This document shows positions 4,777 through 13,767 of a DNA stretch of 23,434 nucleotides, piece after piece. The stretch lies in the IMG/VR virus record IMGVR_UViG_3300018411_000073, positions 1-23,434 of that record; one strand, given 5' to 3'. Position 1 is the stretch's first letter, and every line of letters starts with the position of its first letter. The stretch is from a virus. A model generated the notes under the pieces. It worked only from the letters and a program-made list of their open reading frames with translations. It was not told where the DNA came from and searched no databases. The translations under genes were made by a program, and so were the position numbers.

Positions 4777-6108
4777 TTACACCGTCTTTCTCAGCCCATA
4801 CAGTTTAAAAAGTCCGCTCGCGATATTCCCGGAACTGAAGTAGAAGCGGATTGCATTTACCGCAACGGACGCGTTGTGTCGTCCCGCACCCTGGTATGCA
4901 TGCAGATAGTTCGAGGTGACATTGCCACACCCTGTCCAGAAGAAGTCGCATGGCTGAGCTACGCTTGGGCGAACAATCCGAATCGAGAAGCTTGCTCCTG
5001 AGCCCCCGTTAATGGCGTTTGAGAGCAATATCAAGTTAGAGCCATCAGAAGAGTTCGCCAATCCGGAACCGTTCGTTCCGTATCCCTGCATTGCCCATTT
5101 ATATGCCGTTCCTCCCCCGCTAAACGAGGCACCGTTGTCTGAGGACGCAAGCATTTGGAGTGTCACTGCGGCGGAAGCTGGAATGGCACTAAGAATCTCA
5201 ACCATATACTCATCGTAGGTGCTATCGATTCCGGTAAAGTCGATAGCTGCCACACCTGACGCACTGGCTGTGCTAATCAGAACCAATCCAGATGTAGAGG
5301 CCGGAGCAACAATCGGCTGCCCGTTGGCCTTCGTGTAGTGCATGCACCGGACATTGCCAGAACCGTCGCCGCGGAATGTCGCCCTGTCACCAGCCGCTGT
5401 GGTGATGTTCGCGCCGCCCGGAAGAATCAGCGTTGTTGCGTTATGCGTCAGCAACAACGCACCATCAAACACCACGTCGCGTTCAGCGCCAGACGCCAGC
5501 GTGATAGCAGTAATCGTCGTCGTGCCTGTGATGTGCACAAGATTGCCAGTTGCGGTGTCGAGGTTGACAGTCGCCGCACTGGCAATGTTTGCCCCCTTAG
5601 CCTGGTCTATCGCAGCGCCCGACATGGTCTGCCTGCCGGTGAAAGTGTTTGCCGTAGTGGTCGCAATTCCAGTAACCGCACCCTTTTGACCGTTGACGCT
5701 GGCTACTCCGCCAAGGAAATTCCAGTTAGTCGAGTCTGCCGCCGGATCAGTAGGCGAAGCACCGCCCGGAGCCTTCCTGCGATACGTCTGCCCGTCTGTC
5801 GGCGACCAGACTGCGGCGCCCTCTGCATAGCTGCCGCTTACCCATTTGGTTGCACCTGCTGTCGCTGCTGCGGAGGCTGCTGCTGCGGCTGCATTTGCCG
5901 CATAGGTTCCAGCATCAGTCGATCCTTGTGCGGCGGCCAATGCATTGTTGTAGGCACTCAGCGCCACCGCCAGTAATTCGGCATTGAACACGTTGGCCAT
6001 GTGGGTGCCGAAGTCATAGGCCTTGCTGTTGTAGGTGCCTGCCGCCCGATCCGCCAGCGAAGGAAACTCCGGCGTATCGGTCATGCTTGGTACTGGGGTG
6101 ATTGCCAT
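4777..6108 (-). CDS. Tail fibre / receptor-binding protein
   Basis: A 443-residue protein. Residues 1-55 form a short attachment-like N terminus (TPEFPSLADRAAGTYNSKAYDF). Residues 56-88 are an Ala-rich helical linker. Residues 89-130 look like a small carbohydrate-binding module (W89, Y94, VWSPTDGQTYRRK, W129). Then come repeated Thr/Ala-rich beta segments and a beta-rich C-terminal domain ending RFYFSSGNIASGLFKLYGL, an ending common in phage fibres. It should sit at the tail tip and recognise a surface glycan or protein. The ATG at 6108 shares one base with the preceding stop. Composition differs from neighbours (rich in Ala, Ser, Gly, Thr), as is usual for fast-evolving fibres. Confidence 0.8.
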   Translation of the reverse strand: MAITPVPSMTDTPEFPSLADRAAGTYNSKAYDFGTHMANVFNAELLAVALSAYNNALAAAQGSTDAGTYAANAAAAAASAAATAGATKWVSGSYAEGAAVWSPTDGQTYRRKAPGGASPTDPAADSTNWNFLGGVASVNGQKGAVTGIATTTANTFTGRQTMSGAAIDQAKGANIASAATVNLDTATGNLVHITGTTTITAITLASGAERDVVFDGALLLTHNATTLILPGGANITTAAGDRATFRGDGSGNVRCMHYTKANGQPIVAPASTSGLVLISTASASGVAAIDFTGIDSTYDEYMVEILSAIPASAAVTLQMLASSDNGASFSGGGTAYKWAMQGYGTNGSGLANSSDGSNLILLSNAINGGSGASFSIRIVRPSVAQPCDFFWTGCGNVTSNYLHAYQGAGRHNASVAVNAIRFYFSSGNIASGLFKLYGLRKTV

Positions 6109-7043
6109 CAGATATTCCCTTCGATCTTCAGATTGATTGATGTCGTGCCAAAGTCGTCAGCGCGGATGCTGCCGGAGACGAAGCCCAGCGTGTTGAGGTA
6201 ACCATACCTGGGCAGATTGCTTGCCTCGAATGGCACTGCAGTGTCCTCGATCTCGCCCAGAATTGCATCTGCATACATCGCCTGCTCAGCGTCAATCACC
6301 ACGCTGCAGCTGACGTTGCGGCTGCTCGGCCGCCGTTGAATCGTGTATGTGCCATCGGCGTTGTATTTGCGGTGGGTGTAAGTCTTGCGGTCGGACTGAG
6401 CGCCGTACTGTGTGCCGCCGAACTCCCCGTCACCAAGGAATTGCCGCCAGTCGCCGACTTTGATCACTCCAAGCGCCACCCGCTGTCCGAGGCTCGATGA
6501 GATGGTGATAGTCACCTCAGCATTCGGCGCCAGCGGGATGTCATCGAACGACATCTGTGTCAATGGCAGCAAAGGGGCATACAGCAGTTCGTAGAAGCCG
6601 GTGGCTTGGTCGTAAAGATCGCCGCTCCATGAGCGCAACACTGTCCCGCCCGGCGCGCTCTTCACGACGATGTCGTAGGCAGCCCCCTCAAGTCCATAGA
6701 TCGCCAAGCCGTTCAGGAAGCCAGGCTGCAGCACGAACGTCAGCGAGCCCGTCGATACCGCCTTGGTGGTTGAATAGTCATCGAAGGGTGCCATGCGGTT
6801 TGTCGGCCGCATGCGGGTCCAGTAATCGGTGTCGATGTCCGGCGTCGCCGTGCGCGCGTTGTGCGCCTGGATGCATTTGTACACCGATCCGCTGTAAGTC
6901 CGCTCTAGCCCAACTGTGATGTTGGCACCAGACACCCAGGCTTCCTCCCCAGCAGTCAGGTCCGGCTCCGCTATCGTGGTACCGGACTTGATCATGCTGG
7001 GAGTGATCTCAATCGGCACCATTACCCTCGCGCTCGCTGTCAT
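6108..7043 (-). CDS. Tail-tip protein with carbohydrate-binding-like segment
   Basis: A 311-residue protein directly after the tape measure gene, overlapping it by 4 bases (ATGA at 7040-7043). Residues about 33-77 have the aromatic spacing of a small carbohydrate-binding fold (W36, Y50, VYKCIQAH, YW at 74-75). A long beta-rich region follows, with DWRQFLGDGEFGG and a C-terminal half containing SSRNVSCSVVIDAEQ and YLNTLGFVSGSIR. I do not recognise a named family. By position it takes the place of lambda tip proteins (M, L, I, J are absent), so it may be the distal-tail or baseplate-hub component. Membership of a tail structure is well supported; the exact role is inference. Confidence 0.65.
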   Translation of the reverse strand: MTASARVMVPIEITPSMIKSGTTIAEPDLTAGEEAWVSGANITVGLERTYSGSVYKCIQAHNARTATPDIDTDYWTRMRPTNRMAPFDDYSTTKAVSTGSLTFVLQPGFLNGLAIYGLEGAAYDIVVKSAPGGTVLRSWSGDLYDQATGFYELLYAPLLPLTQMSFDDIPLAPNAEVTITISSSLGQRVALGVIKVGDWRQFLGDGEFGGTQYGAQSDRKTYTHRKYNADGTYTIQRRPSSRNVSCSVVIDAEQAMYADAILGEIEDTAVPFEASNLPRYGYLNTLGFVSGSIRADDFGTTSINLKIEGNI

Positions 7044-10000
7044 GCCAACTCCTCGGTGCGCATGGCGTTACCGCCATCAGTTACGTTCTCGATAATGTCC
7101 GCAGTCCTTTCCGAGCTCTCAGCAACCCGATCGAGCACTTCCTTCAAGTCTTTGCGGAGCTGCTCGTTGTCGGCAAGCACTGCCCTGATTTCCGCCGCAA
7201 GTTCGTTGTTGCCGGTAGCGCCACGCAGAATGTCGGCTGTCTGCGACGCGTTGAAGATACGCGCCGGACCGGTGGCCTCGATCTCCGGGCCGTTCTCGCC
7301 GACGAGCCGCAACCCGCCGAAATGGGAGCCGCCGCCGGCGAAGCCTGGAATGCCGTGCTCGCGGGCGTAGTCGATTGCACTGATGGCATCAGCACCGCCG
7401 GTCGCCACCGCCGCCTTGAGGAAGTCAGTTACGTGCGCATCCCATGACTTCGGGTCGACAATCATCGCGTTCTGCCAGAAGGCAGCGCCAGCCGCATCTG
7501 CCTCGCGGCCGAGGATGTTGCTGTACAGGCCGGTGATCGACGGTGCCGTGCTGCCCGACGAGTTGCCGACTTGAGCCTGCGCGCCGGCCGCTGCGCTGAT
7601 CTTAATTTGTAGATTGGCGATTGCCGAACCCACAGATTTCACCGATGTATCGATGCCGTTGAGGATGTCGACTTGCTGTTGTGCGTACTCCAGCACACCG
7701 TCCAGGCGCTCCATCTCTGCCTGGTAGGCCTGCTCGGTCACCCCCAACTGGTCCTGCAACGATTTCAGTGTCTGCTCTTCCACCGACAGAGCGGAATCCG
7801 TCAGTTTCGCCAGTTCGCCGATCGCCGCCTTGTCCTTCAGGTAGGCAAACTGAGCCTCAGCAAAAGTTGCGTACAGGTCTTCGTTCGACTGCGCCGCGAT
7901 CGACAATGCCTGCTGCAGCGCGTCAGCATCCGGGAGGACACCGCCAGCTTTCGCAATCGCCAGAGCCGCCTGGATCTGCGCCGATGCCGCGGCTTTCTCC
8001 ATGCCGAGCTGCGAATCAAGCCGCATGCTGCCCAGCGTCGACTTCAGATTGCTCGACAGGCTCGAAAGCTTGCCAACCGAACCGTTGATGTCCTGAATCT
8101 GCTTGTTGAAGTCCTTGACCGCTGCGTTGTAAGCATTGGTCGCCGCGGTGCGCTCCGCATCTACTGCACGCTGCACACCAGACATGGCTGCGGAAACGCC
8201 TTCCATCGCTTTGTCCAGCACTGCCTGCAAGGAAGCCTGTGCCGCTTCTTTTGCAGCTTGTGCCGCCGCTGCCTGTGCATCTGCTGCCGCTTTTGCATCC
8301 TCGATAGCTTTGTCAGCCGCCGCCTGGGTGTAGTTCGACACGTTCAGGATGGCCGGGCCAAGCTGCAGCAGCGTAGCCAGAAGCTTCTGGCTGGCTTCGT
8401 CCGTCTTTCCGAAGAGTTCGCCCACCTTCGTGGTGTACTCGTCCTTGGTGTCGATGTCGCCCAATCCTACCGGGTCAAGCGCGTTCTTGAGTTGCTTGCG
8501 CGCCAAGGCCTCTTGCTGCTCCGCCGACAGAAAGTTCTGAGCGTAGAAGGCGGTTTGCGACGAAAGCGCCTCAATGCCACCCGCAGCCGCAATCAGGCTC
8601 TCGCGCGCTGCGGTGCTGGCGAGCCCAATGGCACCGAATCCAGATGTCAATTCTCGACCGAGCGTCAGCGCCAGGTCATTGGTAACGGCAAAGACGCTGT
8701 TCAAGCGAGCAAACGTGTCAAATACCGACTCACCGCGATTGGCGGCCGCTTCCAGCTTGTCGAAGTCCAGTGCTTCGCCAAACTGCGCCAGATAGCCCTT
8801 GTTCTCGACCAGTGCGTCACCGAAGTTGAAAAGCTGGGTGACGAAAGCGGAAAGCTGCCCTTCCGTTCCCTCTACGCCCTTGATGCTCTCTCTGAACGTG
8901 TCAAAGATCCGGACCATATCCTCAATGTACGGATCGAGAGGACTGCTAAGGCGCTCTTGGGCTTTCAATCCTTTAAAGTTGAATTCGCGCTGTCCATCGA
9001 TTGTGTTCGTGAAGTAGGCTTGGTACTCCTTCAATCCGATGTCGATCGTCGTGCGGAAGTTGTCAACGAACTGCAGCGCTGCGCTGTCAGCCATTGCAGA
9101 CATCAGGCGTGCAATCTCCTTCTCTTTGCCGGCGTCATCAAAGTCCTTCAGCGCCAGGCGGAAGTCGTAGGCAAAGTTCTTCATCGTTTCGCCGCCGGCG
9201 CCAACCGTCTTGCCAAGGTCGGCGAAGGTCTTTTGCAGGCTTTCTGCCGCGAAATCAAAGCTGTCCGCTGTCTTCTTTTCTAGCGCAAATGTTTCGGTGC
9301 CGTCGTTACCACCGAACCAGCCACCCTTGCTGAATTCGTAGAAGTTTCCAGAAAAGTCCCCGCCTTTGACAGAGCCCATAATCCCGTTGCCGACAACTTT
9401 GTCACCGAAGCCGCGGTTCACGATGCCACCGAGAAGACCACCAATCAAAGCGCCAATAGCAGTTCCGATGCCGGGCAAGATGTAGGTGCCGACTGCCGCG
9501 CCCGCCGCAGTGCCGCTGTTTACCGCTGAGTTGCCCGAACCCGATCCCCAAGCCGAATAACCATTCGAGATAGCCCGACCACCGTACACTCCGCCGGCGA
9601 CTCCCGCGGCTACAGTCGCCGCGCTGCCTACTGCACCGGCATAACTGCCAGCTTGCGAGCCCAGGGCAGCCGACGTTGACAGATTGCCTGTCTGCTGCGC
9701 ATAGGCGAGCATCGCGGCATTGGCCGTGTTGGTGCCCGCCGCACCGGTGAAACCACCGTAGAAGCCTGCCAGACCGCCGTATGCTGAGTAGGCCGCACTG
9801 CCTGCCGAGTACAGATTAGACGCCATGCCCATGGTGGAATTGCCGGTGCTCACCGCCTGAGCAGCAGTCGGGAGGAACGCAGCCGTGATTGCACCGGAAA
9901 TCGGGGAAAGGAAAGCTTCGATTACCGGCCTGAGCGTTAGGGTCTTGAAGTAATTCATGATCAACTGGCCAGCATTTTTGCCGCCGCGGACCAGTTCATC

Positions 10001-12262
10001 GGTAAGGCTGCGACTGATGTCCTCGTTGATCCGTCTCCAATAGTCGAGCGTTACCCGGGTGGTTGCCCCTTCGCTTGCCCGGGCGGCCGCCTCGCGCGCG
10101 CGTGCGATCTGCTGCGCCTGATCCTCTGCGGTGAGGCCCAGCTCTTTGATGCGCAGAATTTCCTTTTCGAGGTCCAGCTGGATCCGGTATTGGGAAAGCG
10201 CGGTATTCCGCGACGTCTCAGTCTGGCCAAGCAGGGTGATCTCATATGCCGTCAGTGCATTGTTTTCATCAATCGCCCGGCCGTAGTCGTTCACCAGCTT
10301 GATGGCTGAGTTCATGCTTTCGCCGTACCTGCGATCGTAGTCGGCGCGCGCCTTCTCATCTTCAATGAGCTGGTCGGTGATGACGTTCTGGGCTTGCTTC
10401 TTACGCTTGTCCTCAAGGATTGCGAGATCGTTGCTCAACTTGATGCTTCGAGTCAGCCGCTGCTCGTCTAGAATTGCCAGCTGCCCAGACAAAGCTGCCT
10501 GTTCTTTCAAGCTGTTCTGCTTGCCGGCGGCGAAGGACAGTTCAGCCTCAAGATTCTTCCGCTTCTTGTCGAACGCATCCAGTTCAATCTTGGCGACCTG
10601 CTCAATGTAGTCGCGTTCGCTGACCAGGCCGAGAGATTTGTTCGCCTGCAGCTGCTCAAGCGAGCGCTGCGCCAGCACTTCCTCGATCTGGCTACGCTGC
10701 TTCAGCGCTTCAATCTGAGAATTGACGCCATCGTTGAAGATGTCCGAATACTTCTTGCGGATCTCGCCTACGCGGGTTTCGATTTCCGCTTGGGAAACGC
10801 CGGCACGGATTCCCTGCTCGCGCGCGACATTGATTTCCTTTTCCATCTGGGCGGCGCGTGACAGATACTTGTCACCGTCTTTCATCCAGGCAATACGCGC
10901 CTCGTTCTGACGCGCGTTATCCGCTGCAGCGGTTGCGCCCTGCCGTTCCAAGCGGATCATCTCCTGAATGGCTGCCTGCTGTTGCTTCAGCTGGTCAAGG
11001 CTCGGGCCGAAGATTGCGAACGGGTTGTAGGTGCGGATTTGCTCAGAAACACCGGTCAGCTTTTCCTGCAGTGTCTCTTTCCGGCCGACGTCAAGGATTG
11101 CATCCCACCCCTTCTTGGCTGCGCCAATGACCGATCCCCAAGCGCTCTCGATGACGCCGAGGTTGCTCTTCAATTCCTTGGTGCGATCATCGAATGCTTT
11201 GGCATAGGTCTGCTGCGCCAGAGCGGCCGCCTCTTCAGTCTTACCTTGATCCTGCAGCGCCTGAATCTGCTCATAGACGGTTGCGGTAAGGTAACGATAC
11301 TTTTCGTTGAGCCTTTCGCTCGCTTCCACCGGAGACTTGCCGAGTTCGGCCAGGTCCTTTGCGGTCTCGGCCACGCTTTGGCCGACGGATTTCTCCATCT
11401 GAACCGCCACACGGGAGAAATACTCGAGGTTGGTGCCAGCAATGCGGCCGGTGCCGGCCAGTTCAGCCAGAGCCGCGGCGGCCTGAGATTGCGTGCCGGT
11501 GAAACGGCTGATGTTTTGCGCGGATAGCGTCAACAGTCCAGCCGTCGTGCCCGCCGCATTTCCGGTGAGAACGAGCGCGCGGCTGTAGGCGTCAGCCTCT
11601 TTGCTGCCCTGGTTATAGGCGACTGCCAGTGTTCCGGCCGCAGCTGCGGCCAATGTGAGAGGGTTGACCAAGCCAGCGACATAGCTGCCTAGGGCGCGCG
11701 CGGCCGGCACAATACCGCCGAACGAGTCTTTGAGCTGGCCGCCCTGCTGAATGAGAACGGTCAGCGGCGCCTGTCCACTGGCCAAGCTCGTTACGATGTC
11801 CGTCAGCTGGGCGGGCACCATGCGGAGCGCATTGGCCGTCTGGGCGGCAGAAATGCCAACACCCTTCAGCCCGTTATCGGTCGCACCTAGAGCCTGCTGC
11901 GCCTGCCTTTGCTTTGCGGCGACAGCGTCAAGCTGGTCGAGATACGGCCGCAAGGCACTGACATCAACGCCGCGCTGTGACGCGAGCGTCTCGTAATATT
12001 TCGCACTGGTCTTGGATCCAGCCTCCATGAGTGCAGTCGTCCGCTGGATCGACTGAATCATGGAGTTCGTAGCGGACTCGACCTTCTTTGCAGATGCGGC
12101 GCCACCGTTACCGATACTGTCGACCGCTTTGCCGGCCGCCTGGCTGGCTTGGGTGACGGACTGCGCCATCGACTGAACTTCACGCTTGACCTCGTTGGCG
12201 CCCGTCCTGACGCCGGTGGCATCAAGCGAGGTCTCTAGCTGAATTTTTTTGCTATCAGTCAT
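7040..12262 (-). CDS. Tail length tape measure protein, lambda/TMP_2 type
   Basis: The largest gene: 1740 residues. Residues about 1-250 carry the tape-measure N-terminal domain, with MVPAQLTDIVTSLASG and QQGGQLKDSFGG. Helical repeats rich in Ala, Glu and Gln follow (about 300-750). Then come a lambda-type segment (ELVRGGKNAGQLIMNYFKTL and LRPVIEAF, about 755-785), a Gly/Ala-rich hydrophobic stretch (about 815-970; possible membrane-inserting part), more coiled coil, a DUF4214-like segment near 1575-1625, and a typical LVGENGPEIE motif near 1650. It sets tail length and is probably ejected with the DNA. At roughly 0.15 nm per residue the tail would be near 260 nm. The start at 12262 lies after a terminator-like hairpin. 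Confidence 0.93.
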   Translation of the reverse strand: MTDSKKIQLETSLDATGVRTGANEVKREVQSMAQSVTQASQAAGKAVDSIGNGGAASAKKVESATNSMIQSIQRTTALMEAGSKTSAKYYETLASQRGVDVSALRPYLDQLDAVAAKQRQAQQALGATDNGLKGVGISAAQTANALRMVPAQLTDIVTSLASGQAPLTVLIQQGGQLKDSFGGIVPAARALGSYVAGLVNPLTLAAAAAGTLAVAYNQGSKEADAYSRALVLTGNAAGTTAGLLTLSAQNISRFTGTQSQAAAALAELAGTGRIAGTNLEYFSRVAVQMEKSVGQSVAETAKDLAELGKSPVEASERLNEKYRYLTATVYEQIQALQDQGKTEEAAALAQQTYAKAFDDRTKELKSNLGVIESAWGSVIGAAKKGWDAILDVGRKETLQEKLTGVSEQIRTYNPFAIFGPSLDQLKQQQAAIQEMIRLERQGATAAADNARQNEARIAWMKDGDKYLSRAAQMEKEINVAREQGIRAGVSQAEIETRVGEIRKKYSDIFNDGVNSQIEALKQRSQIEEVLAQRSLEQLQANKSLGLVSERDYIEQVAKIELDAFDKKRKNLEAELSFAAGKQNSLKEQAALSGQLAILDEQRLTRSIKLSNDLAILEDKRKKQAQNVITDQLIEDEKARADYDRRYGESMNSAIKLVNDYGRAIDENNALTAYEITLLGQTETSRNTALSQYRIQLDLEKEILRIKELGLTAEDQAQQIARAREAAARASEGATTRVTLDYWRRINEDISRSLTDELVRGGKNAGQLIMNYFKTLTLRPVIEAFLSPISGAITAAFLPTAAQAVSTGNSTMGMASNLYSAGSAAYSAYGGLAGFYGGFTGAAGTNTANAAMLAYAQQTGNLSTSAALGSQAGSYAGAVGSAATVAAGVAGGVYGGRAISNGYSAWGSGSGNSAVNSGTAAGAAVGTYILPGIGTAIGALIGGLLGGIVNRGFGDKVVGNGIMGSVKGGDFSGNFYEFSKGGWFGGNDGTETFALEKKTADSFDFAAESLQKTFADLGKTVGAGGETMKNFAYDFRLALKDFDDAGKEKEIARLMSAMADSAALQFVDNFRTTIDIGLKEYQAYFTNTIDGQREFNFKGLKAQERLSSPLDPYIEDMVRIFDTFRESIKGVEGTEGQLSAFVTQLFNFGDALVENKGYLAQFGEALDFDKLEAAANRGESVFDTFARLNSVFAVTNDLALTLGRELTSGFGAIGLASTAARESLIAAAGGIEALSSQTAFYAQNFLSAEQQEALARKQLKNALDPVGLGDIDTKDEYTTKVGELFGKTDEASQKLLATLLQLGPAILNVSNYTQAAADKAIEDAKAAADAQAAAAQAAKEAAQASLQAVLDKAMEGVSAAMSGVQRAVDAERTAATNAYNAAVKDFNKQIQDINGSVGKLSSLSSNLKSTLGSMRLDSQLGMEKAAASAQIQAALAIAKAGGVLPDADALQQALSIAAQSNEDLYATFAEAQFAYLKDKAAIGELAKLTDSALSVEEQTLKSLQDQLGVTEQAYQAEMERLDGVLEYAQQQVDILNGIDTSVKSVGSAIANLQIKISAAAGAQAQVGNSSGSTAPSITGLYSNILGREADAAGAAFWQNAMIVDPKSWDAHVTDFLKAAVATGGADAISAIDYAREHGIPGFAGGGSHFGGLRLVGENGPEIEATGPARIFNASQTADILRGATGNNELAAEIRAVLADNEQLRKDLKEVLDRVAESSERTADIIENVTDGGNAMRTEELA

Positions 12263-12273
12263 GGCCGTCCAAT

Positions 12274-12297
12274 GAAAAAGCCCCGGTCAAGGGGCTT
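12274..12297 (-). terminator. Intrinsic-terminator-like hairpin between the tail chaperone and tape measure genes
   Basis: Minus-strand stem AAGCCCC/GGGGCTT (12291-12297 with 12278-12284, 6-base loop) followed by a run of five U (12274-12278, the first sharing the stem). It overlaps the stop codon of the T reading frame at 12287-12289 and ends about 12 bases before the tape measure start. On the plus strand a T-run at 12302-12307 follows four bases after the stem, so it could work both ways. Confidence 0.75.
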
Positions 12298-12622
12298 CGG
12301 GTTTTTTGTTGATGTGTGACAGAGCTTCCAGCTCCATCAATTGGATGTCTTCTTCCAGCTGGTCGTACTCGGCCGGGCTTAAGCCGAGCCGATCCATCTT
12401 CTTGTACAGGACGTTGTAATCAAGGCCGACGTATCCGCCGGGGATGACCCGCCACTGCGTTTCAAGGGAGACGAACAGTTGAAAGGCTCGCCAGTTTTCC
12501 GGCCACACCTCAAAGACATCCGACTGCTTCTGCTTGGTGACAGCGACGATCGCCGCAATGAAGGGGTTGCCGGGCGCCCCCTTCTCTTCACGACCGTAGA
12601 ATGCGGCCGCCGCTTCCCTTAG
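12287..12622 (-). CDS. Tail assembly chaperone T domain (DUF1799-like), expressed by -1 frameshift from G
   Basis: This frame has no well-placed start of its own, although a GTG at 12508 exists. Read in the -1 frame from the GGGAAAC site it gives 111 residues: LREAAAAFYGREEKG, then NPFIAAIVAVTKQKQ, VFEVWPENWRAFQLF, WRVIPGGYVGLDY and LEEDIQLMELEALSHI. The WPENW...F...TQWR and MExEAL parts match DUF1799-type phage proteins, which sit where lambda T does. Joined to the 133 residues of G the fusion is 244 residues long. In lambda the GT fusion bridges tape measure and tail tube during assembly. The continuity of the unbroken -1 frame from the slip site to the domain is the main evidence. Confidence 0.85.
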   Translation of the reverse strand, partial: LREAAAAFYGREEKGAPGNPFIAAIVAVTKQKQSDVFEVWPENWRAFQLFVSLETQWRVIPGGYVGLDYNVLYKKMDRLGLSPAEYDQLEEDIQLMELEALSHINKKPEAP

Positions 12623-13020
12623 TTTCCCAGGCGGCCCTGCTGCGTTGCGTTCCGGAAGGCTTCCATGATCGCAACGGATGCGGCCGGAATCTCGTCATCG
12701 AGCTGCTGAAGCGACTCCAGTGACAGCGGCTCATCGAGGCCCCATGTATTGAGCACACGCGCCATGTACTTGGCGTTGTGGTCGCGGGTCTTGCTCATCA
12801 CCGTTTCCAGGGAAAAGCCCGCGGAATCGGCGCCTTCGACGGAAGCGTCTTTGGCCTTAGCTTCTTCCACCAACTCGTCGAACAGCTTGCCGCTTTCGGT
12901 CTTTGTGAAATAGTTGAAGGTCACCGGAAGCTGTCCTTCTCCACCTGCCGGCAGCGCGACAGTGAGGGTCATGGGTTTGAAGGTCTTGGGACGGGCGCCG
13001 AGTGTGATCTTTGTAGACAT
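12619..13020 (-). CDS. Tail assembly chaperone, lambda G-like
   Basis: A 133-residue protein lying between the tail tube and the tape measure, the usual place of lambda G. It starts MSTKITLGARPKTF, has beta-rich edges (MTLTVALPAG, LPVTFNYFTK), a helical middle (GKLFDELVEEAKAK) and a helical end (VAIMEAFRNATQQGR). It resembles the phiE125 gp14 family of tail chaperones from memory. Its last two codons, GGA AAC, belong to a slippery heptamer and the TAA follows at once, so a small share of ribosomes should continue in the -1 frame. Its ribosome-binding site lies within a predicted hairpin (13027-13076). Confidence 0.85.
   Translation of the reverse strand: MSTKITLGARPKTFKPMTLTVALPAGGEGQLPVTFNYFTKTESGKLFDELVEEAKAKDASVEGADSAGFSLETVMSKTRDHNAKYMARVLNTWGLDEPLSLESLQQLDDEIPAASVAIMEAFRNATQQGRLGN
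12622..12628 (-). other. Programmed -1 ribosomal frameshift site GGGAAAC
   Basis: On the minus strand the heptamer G GGA AAC fits the X XXY YYZ rule and is one base different from the lambda G-T site GGGAAAG. The zero-frame stop TAA follows directly (12621-12619). Slipping by -1 opens an unbroken frame to 12287 that carries the T-like domain. Confidence 0.88.
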
Positions 13021-13119: not shown

Positions 13120-13767
13120 TTAGGATGCGTAGGAGATGGAGCGGCCCAGGATGGTCATCGCAGCCTGGACTGTCAGCACCTGGTTGTTATTCATCTGCGG
13201 CATTTCGGAAACGCTCATGTAGCCGTAGCCGTAGGTGACAGCGCCACCGGAAATGACCTGCTTGAATGCCACCTTCTTGAGCGTGCGGGAAATCGCGAGC
13301 ATCGCCTTGTAATTGGCGTTGTTCGGGTCGTACGCGAGCGACAGCGTGATGCTGGTTGCGTTGAAGCCGGTAGGAATGCGGATGCCGTTGCGCTTGGCCA
13401 GCGGGTTGACATCGGTGAAGCGCGGATCACCACCGGACGAGCCGACGGTCAGGACCTGCGGCATTGTTGCCCAGCCGCTGATCTTCTGAGCGGTACCGGC
13501 GCCACCGCCGGCGGGGAAGAACGAAACGTCGCTGGTGTCGAGGTCGACAATCTTGAAGCTGTTGGCGTCGACCACCTCGACTTTATAGACGCTGTCCGTT
13601 GCGTCTTCCCAGCCGGAGGTCAGCAGAATTTCGTCGCCAGTGGCGTAGCCGTGGGCATTCGCTGTCGCGACCGCAGGATTGGCGTTGGTGATCGCCGAAA
13701 TTGTCTTCGCAGCTGCGAAAGTGTTGGAGAACTGCTGCTGCGAGCCCTCGGGAAAGTAGTAAGCCAT
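13120..13767 (-). CDS. Major tail tube protein
   Basis: A 215-residue beta-rich protein placed between the tail-completion gene and the tail chaperones, the standard place of the tube subunit. The early part has SAITNANPAVATANAHGYATGD followed by EILLTSGWEDATDSVYKVEV, a small immunoglobulin- or ubiquitin-activating-like loop domain seen in several phage tail tubes (about residues 20-85). The remainder (PRFTDVNPLAKRNGIRIPTGF, then SLAYDPNNANYKAML and a YGYMSVSEMPQMNNN loop) looks like the tube fold. Many copies should stack as hexameric rings around the tape measure. The start at 13767 has AAAGG upstream. The family call is from position and general pattern. Confidence 0.8.
   Translation of the reverse strand: MAYYFPEGSQQQFSNTFAAAKTISAITNANPAVATANAHGYATGDEILLTSGWEDATDSVYKVEVVDANSFKIVDLDTSDVSFFPAGGGAGTAQKISGWATMPQVLTVGSSGGDPRFTDVNPLAKRNGIRIPTGFNATSITLSLAYDPNNANYKAMLAISRTLKKVAFKQVISGGAVTYGYGYMSVSEMPQMNNNQVLTVQAAMTILGRSISYAS

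Follow-up and report, generated by a model that had tools for sequence, protein, structure and literature searches.

The lambda-type frameshift that joins G to T is textbook knowledge (PMC5009743). Slip sites of the form XXXAAAC directly before the stop codon have been described by the respective authors for Burkholderia phage KL1 (gp18/gp19; PMC3483164) and Acinetobacter phage Loki (gp12/gp13; PMC5313236), AAAAAAC or GGGAAAC sites are given for phiCbK and Colossus (PMC3556154), and a frameshift has been reported for the T1-like phage Solomon (PMC8407766). Among the papers searched, DUF1799 is named only in PMC9658991, as a separate gene and without mention of frameshifting.

The window analysed in the present study is a whole stretch of 23,434 nucleotides, positions 1 to 23,434 of IMG/VR virus record IMGVR_UViG_3300018411_000073. 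Its minus strand very probably encodes a pair of tail assembly chaperones, G and G-T, from a phage with a long tail, G-T being the predicted product of a programmed -1 frameshift (Table 1). The 3' end of G reads CTG GGA AAC TAA (protein end ...GRLGN-stop), placing the heptamer GGGAAAC in the phase G_GGA_AAC with respect to G. The -1 frame is open between a stop at 12697 and the stop ending at 12287, and translation across the shift gives a fusion of 133 + 111 = 244 residues with the junction ...GRLGN-LREAAAAF. Profile searches place the pair between genes for the tail tube and the tape measure protein. The original prediction had named a GGGAAAC heptamer at 12628-12622 followed at once by TAA, a -1 frame open for 111 codons and a 244-residue G-T reading, and its coordinates, phase and lengths were all correct. 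Across the overlap in the window, which offers 25 positions in phase, approximately 0.04 canonical heptamers would be expected by chance, or 0.004 if only GGGAAAC and AAAAAAC are counted; on the whole minus strand of the window, either of these two with a stop directly after it is found once, at the G/T site. Chance is removed as an explanation of the heptamer because the slip site is conserved in relatives, as set out below. Elsewhere in the window, a 311-aa protein encoded after the tape measure gene (6108-7043, minus strand) has a weak match to CBM_5_12 (1.2e-4, below the cut-off) and also matches phrog_6278, of unknown function, and a 536-codon open frame at 7673-9283 on the plus strand, antisense to the tape measure gene, probably represents a shadow frame in G+C-rich coding sequence.

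Table 1 Features of the G/T locus in IMGVR_UViG_3300018411_000073 (positions of the window)
Feature	Position	Strand	Basis or detail
Gene G, tail assembly chaperone, 133 aa, ATG to TAA	12619-13020	minus	PF08748 Phage_TAC_4, phrog_569
Slippery heptamer G_GGA_AAC	12622-12628	minus	sequence; conserved at DUF1799 junctions
TAA stop of G, immediately 3' of the heptamer	12619-12621	minus	sequence
T extension, -1 frame, 111 residues added after slip, and stop	12287-12628	minus	sequence, model
DUF1799 domain core (FEVWPENW...)	12311-12526	minus	PF08809 1e-25, T residues 35-106
Candidate stimulatory hairpin GCGGCCG-CATTCTA-CGGTCGT, -10.0 kcal/mol	12590-12610	minus	11 nt past the heptamer
Tail tube protein, upstream	13120-13767	minus	PF08813 5.1e-34
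Tape measure protein, 1740 aa, downstream	7040-12262	minus	PF06791 2.1e-73, phrog_24
Predicted G-T junction peptide			GRLGNLREAAAAF

In profile searches G matched PF08748 at 4.2e-21, over the curated cut-off, and phrog_569 at 2.6e-12, and the match of the -1 frame to PF08809 lay far over the curated cut-off, so that the DUF1799-like identity originally proposed for T held. PF08809 was the sole Pfam family reported for T, which was assigned neither to the lambda T family (PF06223) nor to PF23812 Phage_TAC_18; a profile comparison with KL1 T gave a probability of 5%. When G was modelled with AlphaFold (pLDDT 85.5), VIA-align ranked 2ob9, the tail assembly chaperone of HK97, first (Z 5.6 over 96 residues). 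This likeness supports the identity of G and falls short of proving it, because the Z score is modest and plain Foldseek of the model against the PDB returned no significant match (none with E below 0.4). The model of T (pLDDT 84.7) gave Foldseek matches to viral proteins named tape measure chaperone from Scapp, F20 and Solomon and, more weakly, to the tape measure chaperones of CcrColossus and Loki (E 0.11 for Loki), while VIA-align returned nothing above Z 4.2 for it. Sequence searches of solved structures with the G and T profiles yielded no meaningful match, NCBIfam held no model for either protein, and blastn of the G/T region against phages gave no match. The nearest prophage relatives of the window sit in Burkholderiales, which suggests a host within that order.

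The junction was readable in 140 DUF1799 loci, the window included, comprising 80 viral loci, 31 genome loci and 29 further prophages. An XXXAAAC slip site was present at all 140, as GGGAAAC at 54 and AAAAAAC at 86, the third base never being any other, and the G stop lay directly behind the heptamer at 127; beta-, gamma- and alphaproteobacterial prophages are represented among these junctions. All 11 cultured phage records examined had the same arrangement of XXXAAAC and adjacent stop, their named hosts being Variovorax, Acidovorax, Pseudomonas, Stenotrophomonas, Klebsiella, E. coli, Citrobacter, Synechococcus and Campylobacter (the last from one unverified record). The original prediction had staked itself on conservation of the slip site in related phages, and the site was kept at every DUF1799 junction read. 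Although the window derives from a metagenomic virus contig that is unverified, an explanation of the frame break as a sequencing or assembly indel within one continuous gene is refuted, its probability being negligible, because the break recurs at the same heptamer in the 140 loci as well as in the genomes of 11 cultured phages.

The fusion is recorded in none of 10 annotated cultured relatives, seven of which show two separate genes while three omit T, much as had been guessed when it was proposed that annotation would probably give two separate genes or miss the upstream part of T. The deposition of T as a gene of its own in those seven records is what would be expected if T were translated separately, from an internal start or through translational coupling where G terminates, with the heptamer being coincidental. 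We nevertheless consider separate translation very improbable. In the window, the first ATG, GTG or TTG of the T frame after 12697 is GTG 12508, which is located within the conserved FEVWPENW core and would cut it, bearing out the earlier remark that T has no good start of its own, and many relatives similarly have no start upstream of the T core. Residues K2 and L3 of T, whose codons are formed by the heptamer and the adjoining downstream bases, are conserved in a frame open only to ribosomes that have shifted, and the T start given in the annotations omits the beginning of a conserved KL..AA segment in most of the cultured phages that were read. The family known in databases only as DUF1799 would as a whole represent the T half of G-T fusions, routinely split or omitted in annotation. 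Two names given to members of these loci may be mentioned here: the DUF1799 T of Acidovorax phage Aval (gp32; OP131589, 1528-1839 of the stretch read) is misannotated as an FAD-dependent oxidoreductase, and the gene in the G position of Synechococcus phage S-LBS1 (MG271909, 319-699 of the stretch read), which ends in AAAAAAC with an adjacent TGA, is named an ABC-type cobalamin transporter ATPase.

Conservation of the adjacent stop was assessed in a non-redundant set of 70 representatives with <60% T identity. The stop stood at distance zero in 60 of these (45 TGA, 10 TAA and 5 TAG), as against a coding baseline of 100 of 714 leucine codons (14%) elsewhere in T that yield a stop in the same register (Fisher 1e-35; common descent persists below the 60% identity threshold, so the p-value overstates the independence of the representatives). 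The first base of T codon 4 is A in 57 of the 70, though ten different residues are coded there, and where the residue is arginine the codon is AGG or AGA in 10 of 12 cases versus 49 of 525 elsewhere; it is therefore the stop itself that is kept, and not a T residue. The remaining 10 representatives lack an adjacent stop and have a G longer by 1-35 residues. In other T families the distance varies: the G stop lies 5 codons on in lambda and 13-19 codons on in AH2 relatives (seven AH2-type control loci; the lambda query returned near-identical loci only), and in prophages with a lambda-type T (PF06223) it is adjacent in 1 of 13 and mostly 7-20 codons off. KL1-type junctions (PF23812, TAC_18) have an adjacent stop in 30 of 32 viral loci, the PF23812 prophages being few and mixed. 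Proteobacterial PF06223 prophages mostly carry AAAAAAC, not the GGGAAAG of lambda, followed by TCC in several lineages. A rule tying AAC in the heptamer to an adjacent stop was rejected: AAC does not need an adjacent stop, because these prophages use AAAAAAC with distant stops.

For RNA structure, the 42 nt that begin at +5 past the heptamer were folded and the result was compared with synonymous codon resampling. Across the DUF1799 family there is excess structure at +5 nt (mean z -1.28, se 0.17), while 15 other positions in G and T gave z of only -0.17 to -0.50 under the same resampling, and the signal is present in both heptamer classes, GGGAAAC and AAAAAAC. Covariation for one fixed stem geometry in 26 sequences was moderate, with 69% of cells paired versus at most 59% when the geometry was slid. 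A predicted RNA hairpin 5-47 nt downstream of the heptamer is thus selected at that position only, to judge from these sequence comparisons. The window's own stem (12610-12590) scored no better than synonymous shuffles (z -0.35), and Shine-Dalgarno-like stimulators upstream were no more frequent than under synonymous resampling (26 observed versus 26.2 expected). KL1-type junctions had a +5 value similar to that of DUF1799, and a second peak of excess structure was seen in them at +65 nt (mean z -1.12). Together, the selected adjacent stop and hairpin constitute a natural and widely conserved test set for asking if termination and -1 slipping compete in bacteria.

In the reading we favour, a single start codon would serve both G and G-T. 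The majority of ribosomes would end at the TAA to give the 133-aa G. A minority would shift back by one base at G_GGA_AAC, where the tRNAs paired to GGA and AAC would re-pair with GGG and AAA, and would read CTA next to produce the 244-aa G-T with its C-terminal DUF1799 domain. By analogy with lambda, many copies of G would coat the tape measure protein and a few of G-T would start tail-tube polymerisation, neither staying in the virion. The downstream hairpin may act as the usual stimulator of tandem slippage. A point against this reading is that AAC as the second codon makes a poor slip site in E. coli assays (PMC4066793, PMC5009743). The adjacent stop may tune slipping or may simply fix the end of G.

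One way in which the stop could tune slipping is if the slip came later than translocation, when the tRNAs occupy the E and P sites and the stop codon stands in the A site, so that release factor and slipping compete; this would account for AAC as well as for the adjacent stop. Such a slip is favoured by the selection of the adjacent stop in DUF1799 and its frequency in TAC_18, by the poor tolerance of AAC to AAA re-pairing in the bacterial A site (PMC4066793), and by RF2-sensitive frameshifting when a stop follows the HIV-1 slip site in E. coli (Horsfield 1995, as cited in PMC4373837). It has to contend, however, with the lambda-T-type prophages, in which AAAAAAC is used with distant stops, with the 10 of 70 DUF1799 representatives in which the stop is not adjacent, and with a lowering of frameshifting by the stop in the cited assays; we regard it as rather unlikely. 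Similarly doubtful is the broader proposal that the DUF1799 and TAC_18 lineages form a distinct -1 class in which XXXAAAC, together with a hairpin and a stop already occupying the A site, sets slipping against termination. Were it true, the ratio of G to G-T would follow release factor activity.

The alternative that the adjacent stop is retained solely to define where G ends (...GN or ...KN), and not to tune slipping, fares better, and we hold it to be a tenable explanation, if somewhat less than an even prospect. G and N are invariant at the C-terminus of G in the alignment and the heptamer itself codes the last residues of G, but G is lengthened in the exceptions described above and bears 7-20 extra residues in the lambda-T relatives.

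Compared with the described systems, the locus shares with lambda G / G-T (PF06894 and PF06223) the order of G then T between the tail tube and tape measure genes, as well as a slippery heptamer at the end of G and a -1 shift to a fusion. It differs from lambda, which has GGGAAAG and a G stop further on, in the use of AAC (Asn) with an adjacent stop and in the Pfam families of both halves. KL1 and Loki share the arrangement in which GGGAAAC or AAAAAAC immediately precedes the stop, and the Loki chaperone is a weak fold match to the window T; in contrast to the window, their T belongs to another Pfam family, PF23812 Phage_TAC_18. In T1-like phages (Drexlerviridae) such as Solomon, Devorator and haarsle, T was identified in a tblastn search that used a DUF1799 relative as query and has about 25-36% identity to the window family, and Devorator and haarsle have AAAAAAC with an adjacent stop (TAA), like the window. 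Variovorax phage VarioGold (p12/p13) likewise combines a tail assembly chaperone G with a DUF1799 T across AAAAAAC-TAA, but was deposited as two genes, and its paper makes no mention of a frameshift. We found no description in the literature of the family-wide regularity of adjacent stop and hairpin, although the survey of Xu et al. 2004 may include members. Besides this modest regularity, the predicted G/T frameshift site is real and ordinary in kind, and constitutes a well-supported added case of tail-chaperone frameshifting.
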